A DNA stretch of 64,000 nt, from assembly GCA_017744915.1 (NCBI GenBank), contig JAGIAH010000003.1, forward strand, positions 124,001 through 188,000, in the 5' to 3' direction. Under the pieces are notes generated by a model that saw only the letters and a program-made list of their open reading frames with translations, did no database searches and was not told the origin of the DNA. Within the stretch, counting starts at the first letter, position 1, and each line of letters begins with the position of its first letter. A program made the translations under genes and the position numbers. This document shows positions 4,500-10,184 of this stretch, one piece after another. This DNA is from Agrobacterium tumefaciens. Its GTDB lineage: Bacteria > Pseudomonadota > Alphaproteobacteria > Rhizobiales > Rhizobiaceae.

Positions 4500-4838
4500 T
4501 CAGTCGCCCTTGCCGGGCTCAGCAGAGAAATAAAGCTCGAGCTTGCCTTCGACGCCGTCCATTTCCTTGGCTTCCGGCATCGGGTCGCGCTTGATCGTGA
4601 TGTTCGGCCAGATCGCGGCATATTCGGCGTTGAGCTTCAGCCACTTGTCGAGACCCGGCTCCGTATCGGGCTTGATGGCCTCAGCGGGACATTCCGGTTC
4701 GCACACACCGCAATCGATGCATTCATCGGGATTGATGGCGAGGAAATTTTCACCCTCGTAAAAGCAGTCAACGGGGCAGACCTCAACGCAATCGGTATAT
4801 TTGCAGCGGATGCAATTGTCGGTCACGACATATGTCAT
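4500..4838 (-). CDS. fdxA: 7Fe ferredoxin (3Fe-4S/4Fe-4S), FdxA type
   Basis: Small cytoplasmic electron carrier of 112 residues. Cysteines C9, C12, C17, C21, C25 and C40, C43, C46, C50 match the spacing of Azotobacter-type 7Fe ferredoxin, which carries one 3Fe-4S and one 4Fe-4S cluster. The open frame extends 16 codons upstream, but the ATG at 4836-4838 is preferred because CTGGAG sits just upstream and family members start MTYVVTDNC. It is convergent with holA and lies downstream of the S4-domain protein and helicase on the same strand. The physiological partner cannot be read from sequence. Confidence 0.95.
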
Positions 4839-4995
4839 GATGAACTCCAGAATATGCAGGCCGGGTCTTTGGGCTTCGGAACACAAGCCGTCGCCCGGAA
4901 TTCAGACAGGGCAATTTCGCAAGTGACGTAATGCCTTTGCTTGCAGATAGCAAGGATAACAATTCTGAAAAACGGATGCGACCTAGAGGTTTATT

Positions 4996-5412
4996 CTAAT
5001 CTTTGTTTCCGTCACTGTCAGACAGAAACCTGTCGAGCGCCCTGCGCTCCTTTTTGGTCGGACGTCCGCTACCGGGCTCACGCAGCGCCTGCTCGAGAGG
5101 GGTGAGCCTGTCGGACGGCTCCCGCGGCGGTGTCTGGTCGTCATAAAGAAGCCGGGCTTCCTCATAAGGTCCACGTCGCACTCCGCCGGATTTGACGACG
5201 AGCACCCTGTCCATCCGCTCGAAACCGATCTCCAGCCTGTCGCCCACCTTCAGCATGAAGCTGGGCTGGCGGACGGCAGTGCCGTTGACCTTCACCTGGC
5301 CCGACTGGATATAGCTCTGGGCCAGCGACCGGGATTTGGCCATGCGGGCAAAGAACAACCACTTGTCCAGACGCTGTCGCGTACTTTCGAGTGGCTGTTC
5401 GTTGCTTCCCAT
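4996..5412 (-). CDS. S4 RNA-binding domain protein, Hsp15-like
   Basis: A 138-residue protein whose residues about 11-60 form an S4 domain (RLDKWLFFARMAKSRSLAQ, then SGQVKVNG), as in heat-shock protein Hsp15, which binds the 50S subunit carrying stalled nascent chains. The C-terminus is basic and Pro/Arg/Lys rich (RPTKKERRALDRFL), also seen in Hsp15 relatives. The gene begins 4 nt after the stop of the upstream helicase, so they are almost certainly cotranscribed. The combination suggests a shared role in RNA or ribosome metabolism; that link is inference. Confidence 0.88.
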   Translation of the reverse strand: MGSNEQPLESTRQRLDKWLFFARMAKSRSLAQSYIQSGQVKVNGTAVRQPSFMLKVGDRLEIGFERMDRVLVVKSGGVRRGPYEEARLLYDDQTPPREPSDRLTPLEQALREPGSGRPTKKERRALDRFLSDSDGNKD

Positions 5413-5416
5413 GGGC

Positions 5417-8400
5417 TTACTTCTTCAGCTGCTCCTTGAGCGCAGCGAGCTTCGCGAAAGGCGAATCCGGATCCATCGGCTTCTCCTTGCGCGGCGGCTT
5501 GGCTTCGAAGCGCTGCTGACCCTGCGGCTTTCCGCCACGGTCGTTGCGTTCCGGCCGGTCCTTGCGCTCCCCGCGATCGTGACGATCATTGTTGCGGTTG
5601 TTGCCGCGATCGGGACGACCACCATCACGCTTACGCTCGCCATCGCCACCGCGATTGGCCGCTTCGCGATTTGCACCGTCACGATTTGTACCGTCACGAT
5701 TGTCGCGACGGCCTTCACCACGACGCTCACCCTGCTCACGTGCACCTTCACGACCCTGACCGCGATGGCCGGGGCGACGGTTTTCGCCACGCTGATTTTC
5801 GTTGCGGCCACCCGGGCGCCACAGAAGAACGGGCTTCGGCTCGGAAGGCTCAGCACCTTCGGCAGAAGCGGTCTCGCTTGCGGCAACCTCTTCACCGGCA
5901 GCTTCCGCAACCGGAGCCTCGGAAGCTTCGCCTTCAGCGGCAGCAACCGTTTCGGCCTGCTGCTCTTCGGAAGCGGGCTCGTCCTGCTCGGTCTCGGCGC
6001 TTTCGTCTTCGCCCGTCACCGCTTCTGCGACGGCAGGAGCGGCAGCACCGGCCTGGCTCGCGAGGAAGGCCTGCGCCTCCTCGGCCGTTACCTGATCGGC
6101 ACGGTAACCGAGGCCCTTGAGAATTTCTTCCATGTCATCGAGCGTTGCGCCGAGAATGGAAAGCATGGCGGTCGTCGTCGTGAAACGGCGGCCGTCATAA
6201 GCACCTTCCGGGCGCGGCTGCTGGCCGGGTTTCCACTGCAGCAGCGGACGGATGAGATCGGCCAGACGCTCGAGAATGTCGATACGCACGGCGCGCTTTC
6301 CGAGGAAACGGAAACCGGCAAGCTTGTAGAACATCCGCTCGAAGCTCGCATCTGTCACGACCGAGGTGCGGCCTGCGGCCAGCACCGGAATGAGATCGCC
6401 ATAACCCGGCTTGCCGAGGCCATCATTCTTCAGCGCCCAAAGCAGCGTGACGAGCTCCGCCGGAGCGGGCTTCAGAAGCGCGGGCAGGAAGACATGATAG
6501 GCGCCGAAACGCACGCCATAGCGGCGCATGGAAGCGCGCGCATCCTGATCGAGCGACTTCACGTCCTCGGCAACGTCGCGGCGGAACAGGACACCAAGAT
6601 TTTCGACGAGCTGGAACGCCAGCCCCTTCGCCAGACCCTGAAGGTCTTCGGCGCGGGAAATGTCATCCAGCGGCTTCAGCACGGTCGCGATCTGGTGGTT
6701 CACGAAACGCTCGATCCGCGCGAGCGCGTGATCACGGGCATTGCCGTTCAGCTGCTCGTCGGCAAGCAGGATCACCCGCGGCTTCATGATGTTGTCGCCG
6801 GCCGAAAGGCGGGCAACCGGCTCGCCCAACCAGCGCACCAGACCATCGGAGCTCAAAGCGAGATCGCCATTTCCACTGGCATGCAGACGCGCGGCACGCG
6901 CCTCGAATTCGAGCGCAAGCGCCTTCTGCGCTGCAGCCTGCACGGCCTTCTGATCCGGCCCTTCCATTCCCGGCACCGGCGTGAACCGGAACCCGGCCAA
7001 TTGGCCGACGTGATGGCCTTCTACGAAGACATCACCATTTACACTGATTTCAGCTTCAAGCATCGCATTCTCTCTCAGGCGCCTCATGAGCACAGATGTC
7101 CTGCGATCAACAAAGCGTTTCGTCAACCTTTCATGTAGCGCATCGGACAATCGATCCTCGATTTCCCGAGTCTTTTCTTGCCAGTGTGTCGGATCGGCAA
7201 GCCATCCTGGGCGGTTCGATACATAAGTCCATGTTCTGATCTGCGCAATCCTCGCAGACAAGGTATCGATCTCTCCATCCGTGCGGTCGGCGCGGCGCAC
7301 CTGCTCGGCCATGAAATCCTCGTTCACCGCCCCGCGCTTGACGAGGTCGAAATAAAGCGTGGAGATCAGATCGGCATGCTGTGCGGGGGCGATGCGGCGA
7401 TAATCGGGCAGCGCGCAGGCCTCCCAGAGTTTTTCCACCCGCGCATCCGTCGTCGTCACGTCGATGATCTCGGGGTAGCGCGACAGATATTCCAGCGCCT
7501 GCTGGTCGATGGCCGGCAGGGCGCGCGAAAGCCCCTGGATCGTCGGGGCGGCATCAAGGCTCGTACGCAGATTGGCGATGGAGGAAAAATCGAAGTTTTT
7601 CGTCCGCCATTGCAGCACCTTCACGGCATCGAACTGATGGGTTTCGATTCGCTCCACCAGCTCGTCGTCGAACGGATCGACGCGACCCGTCACGCCGAAT
7701 GTGCCGTCGCGAAGATGACGGCCGGCGCGGCCGGCGATCTGGCCGATCTCGCCCGGATTGAGATTGCGGAACTGGTAACCGTCAAATTTGCGGTCCTGCG
7801 CGAAGGCGACGTGATCGACATCGAGGTTGAGGCCCATGCCGATGGCGTCCGTCGCCACCAGATATTCGACGTCGCCCGATTGATAGAGCCCGACCTGCGC
7901 ATTGCGCGTGCGCGGCGAAAGCGCGCCGAGCACCACGGCCGCTCCACCGCGCTGGCGGCGCACCAGTTCGGCGATGGCATAAACCTCGTCTGCGGAAAAG
8001 GCGACGATCGCCGTGCGCTGCGGCAGGCGGGTGATCTTCTTCTGGCCGGCATAAAAAAGCTGCGACAGGCGCGGCCGCTCCACCACGGTTATTCCGGGCA
8101 GCAGCTTTTCAAGGATCGGGCGCATCGTGCCCGCTCCCAGAAGCAGCGTCTCTTCCCGCCCGCGCAGATGCAGCACCCGGTCAGTAAAGATATGACCGCG
8201 TTCAAGATCACCGGCCAATTGCACCTCGTCGATGGCGACGAAAGCGGCAGTCGTCTCGCGCGGCATGGCTTCCACGGTGCAGACGGAATATTTGGCCTTG
8301 GGTGGCGCGATTTTTTCTTCGCCGGTGATCAGCGCCACATTCGGCGCACCCACCTTCTCGACCAGACGGGTATAGACCTCCCGCGCCAGAAGACGCAGCG

Positions 8401-8527
8401 GCAGGCCAATGACACCGCTGCCATGCGCGACCATACGCTCTATCGCGTAATGGGTCTTGCCGGTATTGGTGGGGCCGAGAACGGCCGTGACACCGCGGCC
8501 GCTCAGGATCATGGGGCGAAAATTCAA
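5417..8527 (-). CDS. SUV3-like DEAD/DEAH-box RNA helicase with Arg/Gly-rich tail
   Basis: ATP-dependent helicase of 1036 residues related to the mitochondrial degradosome helicase SUV3. Walker A GPTNTGKT is at 18-25, the DEVQ motif at 100-103 and motif VI QIAGRAGR at 263-270. A long middle region follows, then from about residue 830 a low-complexity tail, first acidic and Ala/Glu rich, then rich in Arg, Gly, Asn and Asp with many RG and DRG units, ending in SPFAKLAALKEQLKK. Such tails commonly bind RNA. The start is a TTG at 8525-8527; an in-frame ATG at 8510-8512 is an alternative. Rhizobial homologues have been named MgpS, from memory. The substrate is not determinable here. Confidence 0.9.
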   Translation of the reverse strand: MNFRPMILSGRGVTAVLGPTNTGKTHYAIERMVAHGSGVIGLPLRLLAREVYTRLVEKVGAPNVALITGEEKIAPPKAKYSVCTVEAMPRETTAAFVAIDEVQLAGDLERGHIFTDRVLHLRGREETLLLGAGTMRPILEKLLPGITVVERPRLSQLFYAGQKKITRLPQRTAIVAFSADEVYAIAELVRRQRGGAAVVLGALSPRTRNAQVGLYQSGDVEYLVATDAIGMGLNLDVDHVAFAQDRKFDGYQFRNLNPGEIGQIAGRAGRHLRDGTFGVTGRVDPFDDELVERIETHQFDAVKVLQWRTKNFDFSSIANLRTSLDAAPTIQGLSRALPAIDQQALEYLSRYPEIIDVTTTDARVEKLWEACALPDYRRIAPAQHADLISTLYFDLVKRGAVNEDFMAEQVRRADRTDGEIDTLSARIAQIRTWTYVSNRPGWLADPTHWQEKTREIEDRLSDALHERLTKRFVDRRTSVLMRRLRENAMLEAEISVNGDVFVEGHHVGQLAGFRFTPVPGMEGPDQKAVQAAAQKALALEFEARAARLHASGNGDLALSSDGLVRWLGEPVARLSAGDNIMKPRVILLADEQLNGNARDHALARIERFVNHQIATVLKPLDDISRAEDLQGLAKGLAFQLVENLGVLFRRDVAEDVKSLDQDARASMRRYGVRFGAYHVFLPALLKPAPAELVTLLWALKNDGLGKPGYGDLIPVLAAGRTSVVTDASFERMFYKLAGFRFLGKRAVRIDILERLADLIRPLLQWKPGQQPRPEGAYDGRRFTTTTAMLSILGATLDDMEEILKGLGYRADQVTAEEAQAFLASQAGAAAPAVAEAVTGEDESAETEQDEPASEEQQAETVAAAEGEASEAPVAEAAGEEVAASETASAEGAEPSEPKPVLLWRPGGRNENQRGENRRPGHRGQGREGAREQGERRGEGRRDNRDGTNRDGANREAANRGGDGERKRDGGRPDRGNNRNNDRHDRGERKDRPERNDRGGKPQGQQRFEAKPPRKEKPMDPDSPFAKLAALKEQLKK

Positions 8528-8969
8528 CGTAGTATCCGCGAATCGACTTCATCTGCTTGTCGTACCGCCAATCATCACAGATGCGGGCCGCACGCACCAC
8601 ACATGGCAATGCCCGCCGACAAAGGCAATAGGCCTCACCCGTAAAGTAGCGGAGGAGGATTTCGCAGACGAATTTTCCGTTCAGATTCAGTGACTTGAAG
8701 GTTCAAAAAGAATCCGGCGAAAATGGAATCGATTCGGCTGCGGAACAGTCTGCGAACGAATCGAATACGAATCGCTGACTCAGCCTGATTCCGCTTTTGT
8801 TCTCCGCAATATCTGGTTGGAGAAGCCATACCTCATACCAGATTGTGAATCCGGGTAAGTCATTGCCCGGATTCAGCTTTCCGTGACCGGCAAAAGACAG
8901 AGAATGCCCCAACAGCCTGTCAAGCGACAATCGTCAGGAGACCTCTCCACCGCCCGGCGAAGGGTCAGG
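8528..8969. other. 442-bp intergenic region dense in GANTC sites
   Basis: No convincing gene lies here: the short minus-strand frames at 8635-8829 and 8703-8930 overlap each other and lack a family signature. The region contains eleven GANTC sites (starts at 8540, 8684, 8710, 8726, 8731, 8758, 8769, 8777, 8787, 8847, 8870), an 11-bp-spaced direct repeat ACGAATCG (8756 and 8767), and a hairpin at 8846-8875. It separates the 3' end of the UbiH-type gene from the 5' end of the helicase on the same strand, so it should carry the helicase promoter. Confidence 0.75.
8846..8875. terminator. candidate factor-independent hairpin downstream of the UbiH-type gene
   Basis: Perfect 10-bp inverted repeat TGAATCCGGG (8846-8855) / CCCGGATTCA (8866-8875) with a 10-nt loop. 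It sits just after the end of the minus-strand hydroxylase gene, as expected for its terminator, but no clear U-tract follows on that strand, so the role is uncertain. Confidence 0.45.
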
Positions 8970-10184
8970 TCAGAGCGCCTCCCCGGCAAGAAGGCGCGGC
9001 GCATTCGCATCTGTCGTGCCGGCGGCCTGGCCGATGAAATAGGATTTGAGACCCGGCAAACGATCCACCACGCCCAGACCGAAATCGCGCATGATGCGGA
9101 TGGGTCCGACATCGTTGGAGAAAAGCCGGTTCAGCACATCCGTCGTCACACCCATGCGCAGCGTGTCGAAACGACGCCAGGACTGATACCGCTCAAGAAC
9201 GTTGAGAGAGCCGATATCGAGACCGAGACGGTCGGCCTCGACCACGGTTTCGGCGAGCGCCGCCACATCCTTGAAGCCGAGATTGAGGCCCTGTCCGGAA
9301 ATCGGATGGATACCGTGCGCCGCATCACCCGCAAGCGCAAACCGTGGCGCAACGAAGGAGCGCGCCAGTGTCAGACCGAGCGGAAAGGCGCGGCGGGGAC
9401 CAACCGGGCGGACGGGACCGAGCTTGTGGCCGAACCGGCGCTCCAGCTCTTCCTCGAATACCAGATCGTCGGAGGCGGCCAGCCTTTCGGCGTCGGCCGT
9501 GCGTTCGGTCCAGACGAGCGAGGAACGGTTTCCCTTGAGCGGCAGAATGGCGAAGGGGCCGGAGGGCAGGAAATGTTCTTCAGCACAGCCCTCATGCGGT
9601 CGCTCATGCTCGACCGTGGTGACGATGCCGGACTGATCGTAATCCCAGCGCACGGTCTTGATGCCGGCCATGTCCCTGAGCGCCGAGCGAACCCCGTCAC
9701 AGGCAATGAGCAACCGCGTTTCGAGCGACGAGCCGTCCGAAAGGCCAATGGTCGTCGATTGCGGCCCTGCGGTAAAGCCTGAAACGCTGAGACCATGGCG
9801 CATTTCGACACCGAGACGCTCGCACAGGCCACGCAAGGCACCCACCAGAGCGACGTTCGGAACCATATGGGCAAAAGGCCTGCCCGCTTCCACCGCGCCA
9901 TCGAAGGTCAGGAACACCGGGCGAACCGGATCGGCGGTCTTCGAATCGGTAACGATCATCTTGTGGATCGGCTGAGCCTCGGGCTCGATCTCGTTCCATA
10001 TGCCGAAGACATCGAGCATGCGCGTGGCCGCGGCAATGATGGCGGAGGCGCGCATATCCTTCTTCCAGACGTCCTCGGGAGCGGCCTCGACCACCTGCAC
10101 ATCAAGGTGCGGGGCCGCCTGCTTAATTGCGACAGCAACGGAAAGACCGACATATCCGCCACCTGCAACCACCACGTCCAGCAT
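8970..10184 (-). CDS. ubiH: FAD-dependent ubiquinone-biosynthesis hydroxylase (UbiH/UbiF/COQ6 family)
   Basis: Flavoprotein monooxygenase of 404 residues, expected to hydroxylate the ubiquinone precursor ring at the membrane. The N-terminal Rossmann motif is VVAGGGYVGLS; the second FAD motif is GDAAHGIHPISGQGLN, the signature of this family; an ACDG motif lies between them. The ATG at 10182-10184 is chosen because AGGAG precedes it and the dinucleotide fold starts immediately; an upstream extension to 10235 is unlikely. It diverges from tesB with an 86-bp spacer. Which ring position it modifies cannot be told from sequence, so the H assignment is nominal. Confidence 0.85.
   Translation of the reverse strand: MLDVVVAGGGYVGLSVAVAIKQAAPHLDVQVVEAAPEDVWKKDMRASAIIAAATRMLDVFGIWNEIEPEAQPIHKMIVTDSKTADPVRPVFLTFDGAVEAGRPFAHMVPNVALVGALRGLCERLGVEMRHGLSVSGFTAGPQSTTIGLSDGSSLETRLLIACDGVRSALRDMAGIKTVRWDYDQSGIVTTVEHERPHEGCAEEHFLPSGPFAILPLKGNRSSLVWTERTADAERLAASDDLVFEEELERRFGHKLGPVRPVGPRRAFPLGLTLARSFVAPRFALAGDAAHGIHPISGQGLNLGFKDVAALAETVVEADRLGLDIGSLNVLERYQSWRRFDTLRMGVTTDVLNRLFSNDVGPIRIMRDFGLGVVDRLPGLKSYFIGQAAGTTDANAPRLLAGEAL

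Follow-up and report, generated by a model that had tools for sequence, protein, structure and literature searches.

A GANTC-dense composite element upstream of a SUV3-like helicase gene in Agrobacterium tumefaciens: a candidate CcrM/GcrA-type control region in Rhizobiales

Introduction

Why should eight CcrM-type GANTC sites be packed into 108 bp in front of a gene for a SUV3-like helicase? The window in which they lie is a stretch of 64,000 nucleotides of Agrobacterium tumefaciens, and an initial annotation, made from its letters, left three readings side by side: a methylation-sensitive control region, a protein-loading site, or a repeat element that merely contains GANTC. The first is now the best supported, given GANTCs that are conserved as units among closer relatives, a GcrA-type motif, genes for both CcrM and GcrA, and the neighbours of the other dense GANTC clusters sampled in this genome. 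The cluster is, in our judgement, probably the core of the control region of a putative helicase-S4-FdxA operon, and would act as an epigenetic promoter of the CcrM/GcrA type. The features concerned are:

8684-8791, no strand: GANTC cluster of 8 CcrM-type sites (motif count and background count)
5417-8527, minus strand: SUV3-like helicase, the gene with the element on its 5' side (Pfam DEXQc_Suv3)
4996-5412, minus strand: S4-domain protein, the next gene, same direction
4500-4886, minus strand: FdxA-type ferredoxin, the third gene, same direction (read from its sequence, without a family search)

The density of GANTC sites

The counts of the initial annotation were accurate. The eight sites start at 8684, 8710, 8726, 8731, 8758, 8769, 8777 and 8787, and the intergenic region (8528-8969) contains 11 in total, the three beyond the cluster starting at 8540, 8847 and 8870. 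The palindrome GAATCGATTC lies at 8726-8735, where it had been placed, and ACGAATCG is repeated with an 11-bp period (starts 8756 and 8767). The claim that this density far exceeds the background also holds: 8 sites in 108 bp compare with a maximum of 5 in a 104-bp span in a 1.2-Mb sample of the 4.9-Mb genome. GANTC is avoided overall, since the 64-kb window holds 86 against 330 in dinucleotide shuffles; the genome sample has 1,206, or 1.01 per kb.

Dense clusters of GANTC are few in the genome sample and adjoin cell-cycle genes; the one at 8684-8791 is the densest seen. The densest others, whose neighbours dnaA, minC and the argD-like aminotransferase gene were named by reading their sequences without a family search, are:

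C26:340552: five sites beside gcrA (C26:339875-340405, minus strand), between it and the divergent argD-like aminotransferase gene
C26:231840: four sites upstream of dnaA
C11:92031: four sites upstream of minC

Because it is placed between divergent genes, the five-site cluster may serve either gcrA or the argD-like gene. Upstream of gcrA in A. tumefaciens, 6 GANTC fall within 250 bp, and methylation lowers the activity of this region (PMC11514494, in excerpt). The cluster upstream of minC is a candidate methylation-controlled division promoter in its own right.

That the cluster would be kept in close relatives is borne out in part. All 20 of the closer same-genus orthologs that were aligned have 10-12 GANTC per region. 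Nine more distant loci of the same genus have 3-10 per region and at most 2-6 per 104 bp; there the core described below persists while the full density thins out.

Anatomy of a composite element within the cluster

What the initial annotation lacked, although it gave the cluster, was the 11-bp-phased architecture, the tandem copies in relatives and the LexA-type box. Inside the cluster lies a composite DNA element of about 90-120 bp, in which GAAC-type half-sites in 11-bp phase are followed by CGAATC[A/G] and then by TTTGTTC, with GANTCs at set offsets. We number it from the GAAC at window position 8754 (offset 0). Its parts and surroundings in the window are:

8733-8810, plus strand: conserved composite element, the sole match of the sequence model in the genome (E 2e-14, C20:132733-132810)
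8743-8757, minus strand: GAACN7GAAC on the plus strand, GTTCN7GTTC on the helicase strand, half-sites 11 bp apart; an exact alphaproteobacterial LexA-type box
8757-8763, minus strand: CGATTCG on the helicase strand, extended GcrA-type motif 1 (motif of PMC7987155, in excerpt)
8768-8774, minus strand: CGATTCG on the helicase strand, motif 2, the central site of the element
8777-8781, no strand: GACTC, the GANTC at +23, intact in 20/20 closer same-genus orthologs
8787-8791, no strand: GATTC, the GANTC at +33, intact in 20/20 closer same-genus orthologs
8796-8802, plus strand: TTTGTTC, the inverted outer half-site, +42 to +48
8811-8843, no strand: inverted pair ATCTGG...CCAGAT flanking the core
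8846-8875, no strand: inverted repeat TGAATCCGGG...CCCGGATTCA with one GANTC per arm (8847, 8870), both intact in 20/20 closer same-genus orthologs

Across copies, a GNNC half-site at -11 (GAAC in most proximal copies) precedes GAAC[AG]AA at offset 0, and a GNNC at +11 runs into CGAATC[AG] at +14 to +20. TTC follows at +35 and TTTGTTC at +42 to +48, with ATAT.TGG-like and CCAGAT-like motifs around +52 and +83. The outer frame, GAACRAA...TTYGTTC, is an inverted repeat. GANTCs occur at -7, +4, +15, +23, +33 and +93 in varying subsets, of which the window lacks only the one at -7. TTAA is found near -21 in 162 of 307 copies, and nowhere within the window's region 8528-8969. This 307-copy set is anchored on GAAC[AG]N9CGAATC, whose letters are thus fixed by construction, and includes one copy from a stretch labelled Gammaproteobacteria.

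Many relatives carry 2-4 copies in tandem, mostly 200-300 bp apart. At 249 loci with a located helicase start, the strict pattern was present in no copy at 34, one at 100, two at 88, three at 22 and four at 5; most of these loci were found by pattern, and the copy numbers are not population rates.

Distribution of the element

Searched as DNA, the intergenic region has matches in 34 of 39 genus genomes, this one included, and the core GAACN7GAACGAATCN4-5ACGAATCGC was present in all 29 relatives' loci returned (of 33 matches); some genus members beyond these 29 loci have the core with one or two mismatches. With up to three mismatches allowed, the core pattern was found in 216 of 297 family genomes and 83 of 109 genera; the reversed pattern, run as a control, gave matches in two rows. 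Carriers named by the pattern scan include Agrobacterium, Rhizobium, Ensifer, Mesorhizobium, Brucella, Bartonella, Labrenzia, Methyloligella and a metagenome-assembled Hyphomonadaceae genome. We also derived a sequence-only model (88 positions) from 98 diverse copies. It matched 92 of 121 Rhizobiales genomes, in 39 of the 52 sampled families; the other 29 genomes of the order gave no match in this search, whose filters lose weak matches. Outside Rhizobiales the element is sparse. A class-level search matched 12 of 106 genomes, two of which belong to Rhizobiales, and three of the matches from other orders are weak (E 1e-4 to 0.0095).

In this genome the model matches once, at 8733-8810, and the 442-bp region has no second copy, the next match being 19 bases long. 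With this single copy it is not a dispersed repeat, and the earlier suggestion of a repeat that merely contains GANTC is not supported.

Position relative to the helicase gene and the origin

Among the best whole-genome matches listed, which cover 88 of the 92 matching genomes (the best matches of the other four were left out), 86 lie within 1.2 kb upstream of a SUV3-like helicase gene and on the opposite strand, and they span 36 of the 52 sampled Rhizobiales families. In the remaining two assemblies the match and the helicase gene are on different contigs. The pattern scan, for which 80 of at least 119 stretches were listed and whose loci were selected for the pattern, agrees: the core is upstream on the opposite strand at all 72 loci with a helicase start, and the nearest exact-pattern copy is 41 to 810 bp from that start. 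Of the eight listed loci without a helicase start, two, labelled Gammaproteobacteria and Euryarchaeota, are probably chance matches. The order-level set comprised 90 loci from 118 genomes (28 left out), reduced to 78 by the removal of 12 without a helicase start; 59 have the strict anchor.

The gene on the other side of the element varies between genomes. Here it encodes a UbiH-like FAD enzyme, which adjoins the element at 6 of 30 family loci, all in this genus; in a relative (L408) an acyl-CoA dehydrogenase-like gene flanks the helicase-side element. Because the helicase side is constant and the opposite neighbour varies, the element is best read as a cis-regulatory region of the helicase gene. 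The helicase, S4-domain and ferredoxin genes form a putative operon, and in L408 the gene run extends to a CarD-like protein (read from its sequence). The constancy of place also weakens the protein-loading reading: across 36 of the 52 sampled families the element precedes the same gene in the same orientation. A CcrM/GcrA-controlled promoter would have a GANTC within about 40 bp of a sigma70 transcription start; a sigma70 promoter scan of 8400-9100 gave no match, using a consensus that may not fit this organism, and a terminator scan of the same interval found none.

The locus is origin-proximal, as judged through parS, which is taken as a mark of the replication origin. Sixteen genomes were picked by hand, chiefly because their assemblies have few contigs. 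Twelve of them have an exact parS match, and in every one of these the distance between element and parS, obtained by subtraction, is 35-440 kb; for five genomes of this genus it is 55-80 kb.

The element can also sit beside other genes, as a copy in a genome without a detected helicase and extra copies in some genera indicate. G500, in which no SUV3-like helicase was detected, has a strong element (E 8.5e-13) between an acyl-CoA dehydrogenase gene and a LolA-like gene (L396, L405). In genus g128 (L344, L345, L346) paired copies occur away from the helicase; an AsnC-like regulator and a solute-binding protein (read from sequence) are encoded near the copies at these loci, and at L346 mltA and smr are 1.5-3.3 kb from them. 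The 8.9-Mb genome G414 (L349, L350) has four extra copies in two places, as if the element had spread there.

Constraint on GANTC and the GcrA-type motif

A first pointer to methylation is that GANTC behaves as a unit. In the 307 copies a whole GANTC is present at -7, +4, +23, +33 and +93 in 58, 178, 108, 74 and 70 copies, above the 10, 101, 44, 23 and 9 expected from independent columns; the GANTC at +15 is fixed by the search anchor and falls outside this comparison. The independent-column test is not corrected for shared ancestry. Since shared ancestry inflates the excess, we added a test on single substitutions. These fall on the free N in 11 of 15 cases at -7 and 12 of 17 at +93; at +4, +23 and +33 the N is not singled out (10/34, 12/35 and 10/52).

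A second pointer comes from orthologs of the region. The seven GANTCs outside the core (8540, 8684, 8710, 8726, 8731, 8847 and 8870) are on average 89% intact in the 20 closer orthologs, against 44% for the other four-letter words of the region (P 0.0003; P 0.001 against GC-matched words). The weakest of them, 8726, is intact in 11 of 20. At the nine more distant loci of the genus most outer GANTCs are missing.

YGATTCG/YGAKTCK is the extended motif for GcrA activation at CcrM-methylated promoters in Caulobacter, and no extended motif was recovered for the GcrA targets of Brevundimonas (PMC7987155, in excerpt). On the helicase strand, the sequence at the element's central site is YGATTCG. At +20, a position free of the anchor, 305 of 307 copies have A or G (238 of 238 in an overlapping set), and 159 of the 178 GANTCs at +4 are also YGAKTCG on the helicase strand. 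In the region, 4 of 11 GANTCs are YGATTCG, compared with 105 of 1,206 in the genome sample (Fisher P 0.012). Genes for CcrM and for GcrA were each found in 118 of the 121 Rhizobiales genomes, including this one. With both so widespread, the correlation between their presence and that of the element is uninformative across these genomes. Nearly all of the 29 genomes in which the element was not matched nonetheless encode both regulators, which counts against the CcrM/GcrA reading.

When +15 is left free, 110 of 201 matches have GAATC there, and no other GANTC appears among the listed pentamers. This suggests that the reader protein wants a fixed sequence and not just any GANTC. Most of the remaining matches inspected are the same elements read on the opposite strand, as follows from the inverted repeat of the outer frame.

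Alternative explanations

The fixed pentamer is also what one would expect if the element were the operator of a regulator that binds 11-bp direct repeats, with GANTC merely a part of the recognition sequence and methylation irrelevant. OmpR-family regulators and alphaproteobacterial LexA bind repeats so spaced, and the GNNC half-sites at -11, 0 and +11, their near-constant spacing, the inverted TTTGTTC at a fixed distance and the retention of a strong copy in G500, a genome without a detected helicase, all fit such an operator. Against it stand the conservation among closer orthologs of GANTCs outside the core, the freely changing N at -7 and +93, and the purine that is nearly always found at +20, as the GcrA motif wants. 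We regard this explanation as unlikely, albeit the strongest competitor.

A second and less probable rival takes the proximal copy as a LexA (SOS) operator, GTTCN7GTTC, so that the helicase operon would belong to the SOS regulon and the overlapping GANTCs would be incidental. The window has an exact GAACN7GAAC, and 118 of 129 proximal copies contain the second GAAC; it recurs, however, in only 19 of 109 distal copies, and a LexA box accounts neither for the rest of the frame nor for the conserved GANTCs outside the core. LexA boxes do overlap GANTC and can mimic conserved GcrA sites (PMC7987155, in excerpt), and depleting CcrM in A. tumefaciens raises the expression of SOS-related genes (PMC11514494, in excerpt). 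Possibly the control region is a joint one, for GcrA-type and LexA-type regulation.

We give little credence to the proposal that this is a chromosome-maintenance site (for initiator titration, segregation or nucleoprotein loading) whose proximity to the helicase near the origin is coincidental. The distances to parS reported above speak for it, as does an enrichment of DnaA boxes and CtrA-type sites around the element in relatives: in the helicase-upstream regions of 125 non-redundant relatives, the CtrA-type TTAACCAT occurs 38 times (mean of 150 permuted words, 1.7) and the DnaA box TTATCCACA 8 times (200 permuted words, 0.46); the Markov and permutation controls behind this enrichment are not corrected for shared ancestry. 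Yet the element keeps to one gene and one orientation in 36 families while its distance to parS varies more than 10-fold, and TTATCCACA, TTATNCACA and TTAA are all absent from the window's region; for this last reason we do not invoke CtrA or DnaA sites here. The region was also considered as the chromosomal oriC itself and rejected. DnaA boxes are a defining feature of a chromosomal oriC, and there is none in 8528-8969; the 125 relatives' regions contain 8.

Least credible is a structured leader RNA or small RNA, which strong primary-sequence conservation upstream of an RNA-helicase gene might suggest: the best Rfam scores (12.5 and 11.8 bits) fall short of the gathering scores of 50 and 44, and consensus pairs are absent from the 307 non-redundant copies (both strands) and from the 98-copy alignment (plus strand), so that the element probably acts as DNA and not as RNA.

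A model for the CcrM/GcrA-type control region

We return to the preferred reading, a CcrM/GcrA-type epigenetic promoter whose architecture would be both old and more elaborate than usual. In this model the element is a composite stretch of protein-binding DNA in which GAAC/GNNC half-sites recur every 11 bp on one helix face, carrying one or two YGATTCG sites on the helicase strand, further GANTCs and the inverted TTTGTTC. Methylation, GcrA binding and an effect on expression are predictions from these sequence features. First, CcrM would methylate the GANTCs late in the cell cycle. Second, the passing replication fork would leave the locus hemimethylated, early and for long because it lies near the replication origin. 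Third, GcrA, together with sigma70-RNA polymerase, would read the methylation state of the YGATTCG sites, as their motif suggests, and transcription of the helicase operon would be set or timed as a result. The tandem copies of relatives would add further such modules. The effect could go in either direction, toward activation when methylated, as at many GcrA targets, or toward repression, as at the A. tumefaciens gcrA promoter.

GcrA is probably not the whole story. Its 7-bp motif leaves the 11-bp phasing of GAAC, the TTTGTTC, the TTAA that relatives have at -21 and the tandem copies unaccounted for. Because it explains neither phasing, TTTGTTC nor tandem copies, a second DNA-binding protein likely acts at the element.

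More tentatively, we suggest that the element could be an ancestral Rhizobiales epigenetic timer, modular and tandemly repeatable, in which fork passage is read through hemimethylated, phased GANTCs and an RNA-decay and translation operon is thereby tied to the cell cycle. This is a conjecture that we think may well be wrong. Were it true, the operon so timed would comprise the SUV3-like helicase, the S4 protein, the ferredoxin and, in at least one relative, the CarD-like protein, and it would be a core CcrM/GcrA target that survived an otherwise wholesale rewiring of the regulon. As a target of this regulon, an element that has the GcrA motif at its centre and precedes one gene in 36 of 52 sampled Rhizobiales families would be conserved to an unusual degree. 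Such an element could serve for studying how phased GANTCs are read, and it suggests that RNA helicase and ferredoxin functions may be among the outputs of the cell cycle.

Comparison with known systems

By title or the start of the abstract, the element is undescribed in the open-licence literature searched, and the listed matches to the string GAACGAATC look unrelated by the same measure. The main text of the paper on CcrM in A. tumefaciens contains no mention of "helicase".

Two known kinds of sequence resemble the element in part. The CIR sequences of Chen and Shapiro (2003) are said to be CcrM-associated long intergenic repeats, dispersed and multi-copy; they share with the element an intergenic position, length and CcrM sites, whereas the element is single-copy in this genome and goes with one gene. 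Alphaproteobacterial LexA boxes (GTTCN7GTTC; motif in PMC7987155, in excerpt) have an exact counterpart on the helicase strand of the proximal copy, but are absent from 90 of 109 distal copies, and the rest of the element is no part of a LexA site.

The closest likeness is to CcrM/GcrA promoters, such as Caulobacter ctrA P1, mipZ and podJ or A. tumefaciens gcrA and repABC-Ch2, which share with this locus a GANTC-dense upstream region and YGATTCG sites, and both of whose regulators are encoded here too. Proximity to the origin has been discussed for ctrA P1 (PMC3667746, in excerpt), and the element is likewise origin-proximal. The described targets differ in that they rest on one or a few short GANTC sites, whereas the element is multi-part, extends over about 90-120 bp, is often present in 2-4 tandem copies and precedes the same gene in 36 of 52 sampled families; the GcrA/CcrM regulon, by comparison, is reported to be heavily rewired between species (PMC7987155, in excerpt). 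The CcrM/GcrA-type control region is thus an already known kind of system, of which this elaborate and tandemly repeatable version, spread over much of the order, is apparently undescribed, and to which, on the sequence evidence, we assign the element as a candidate member.
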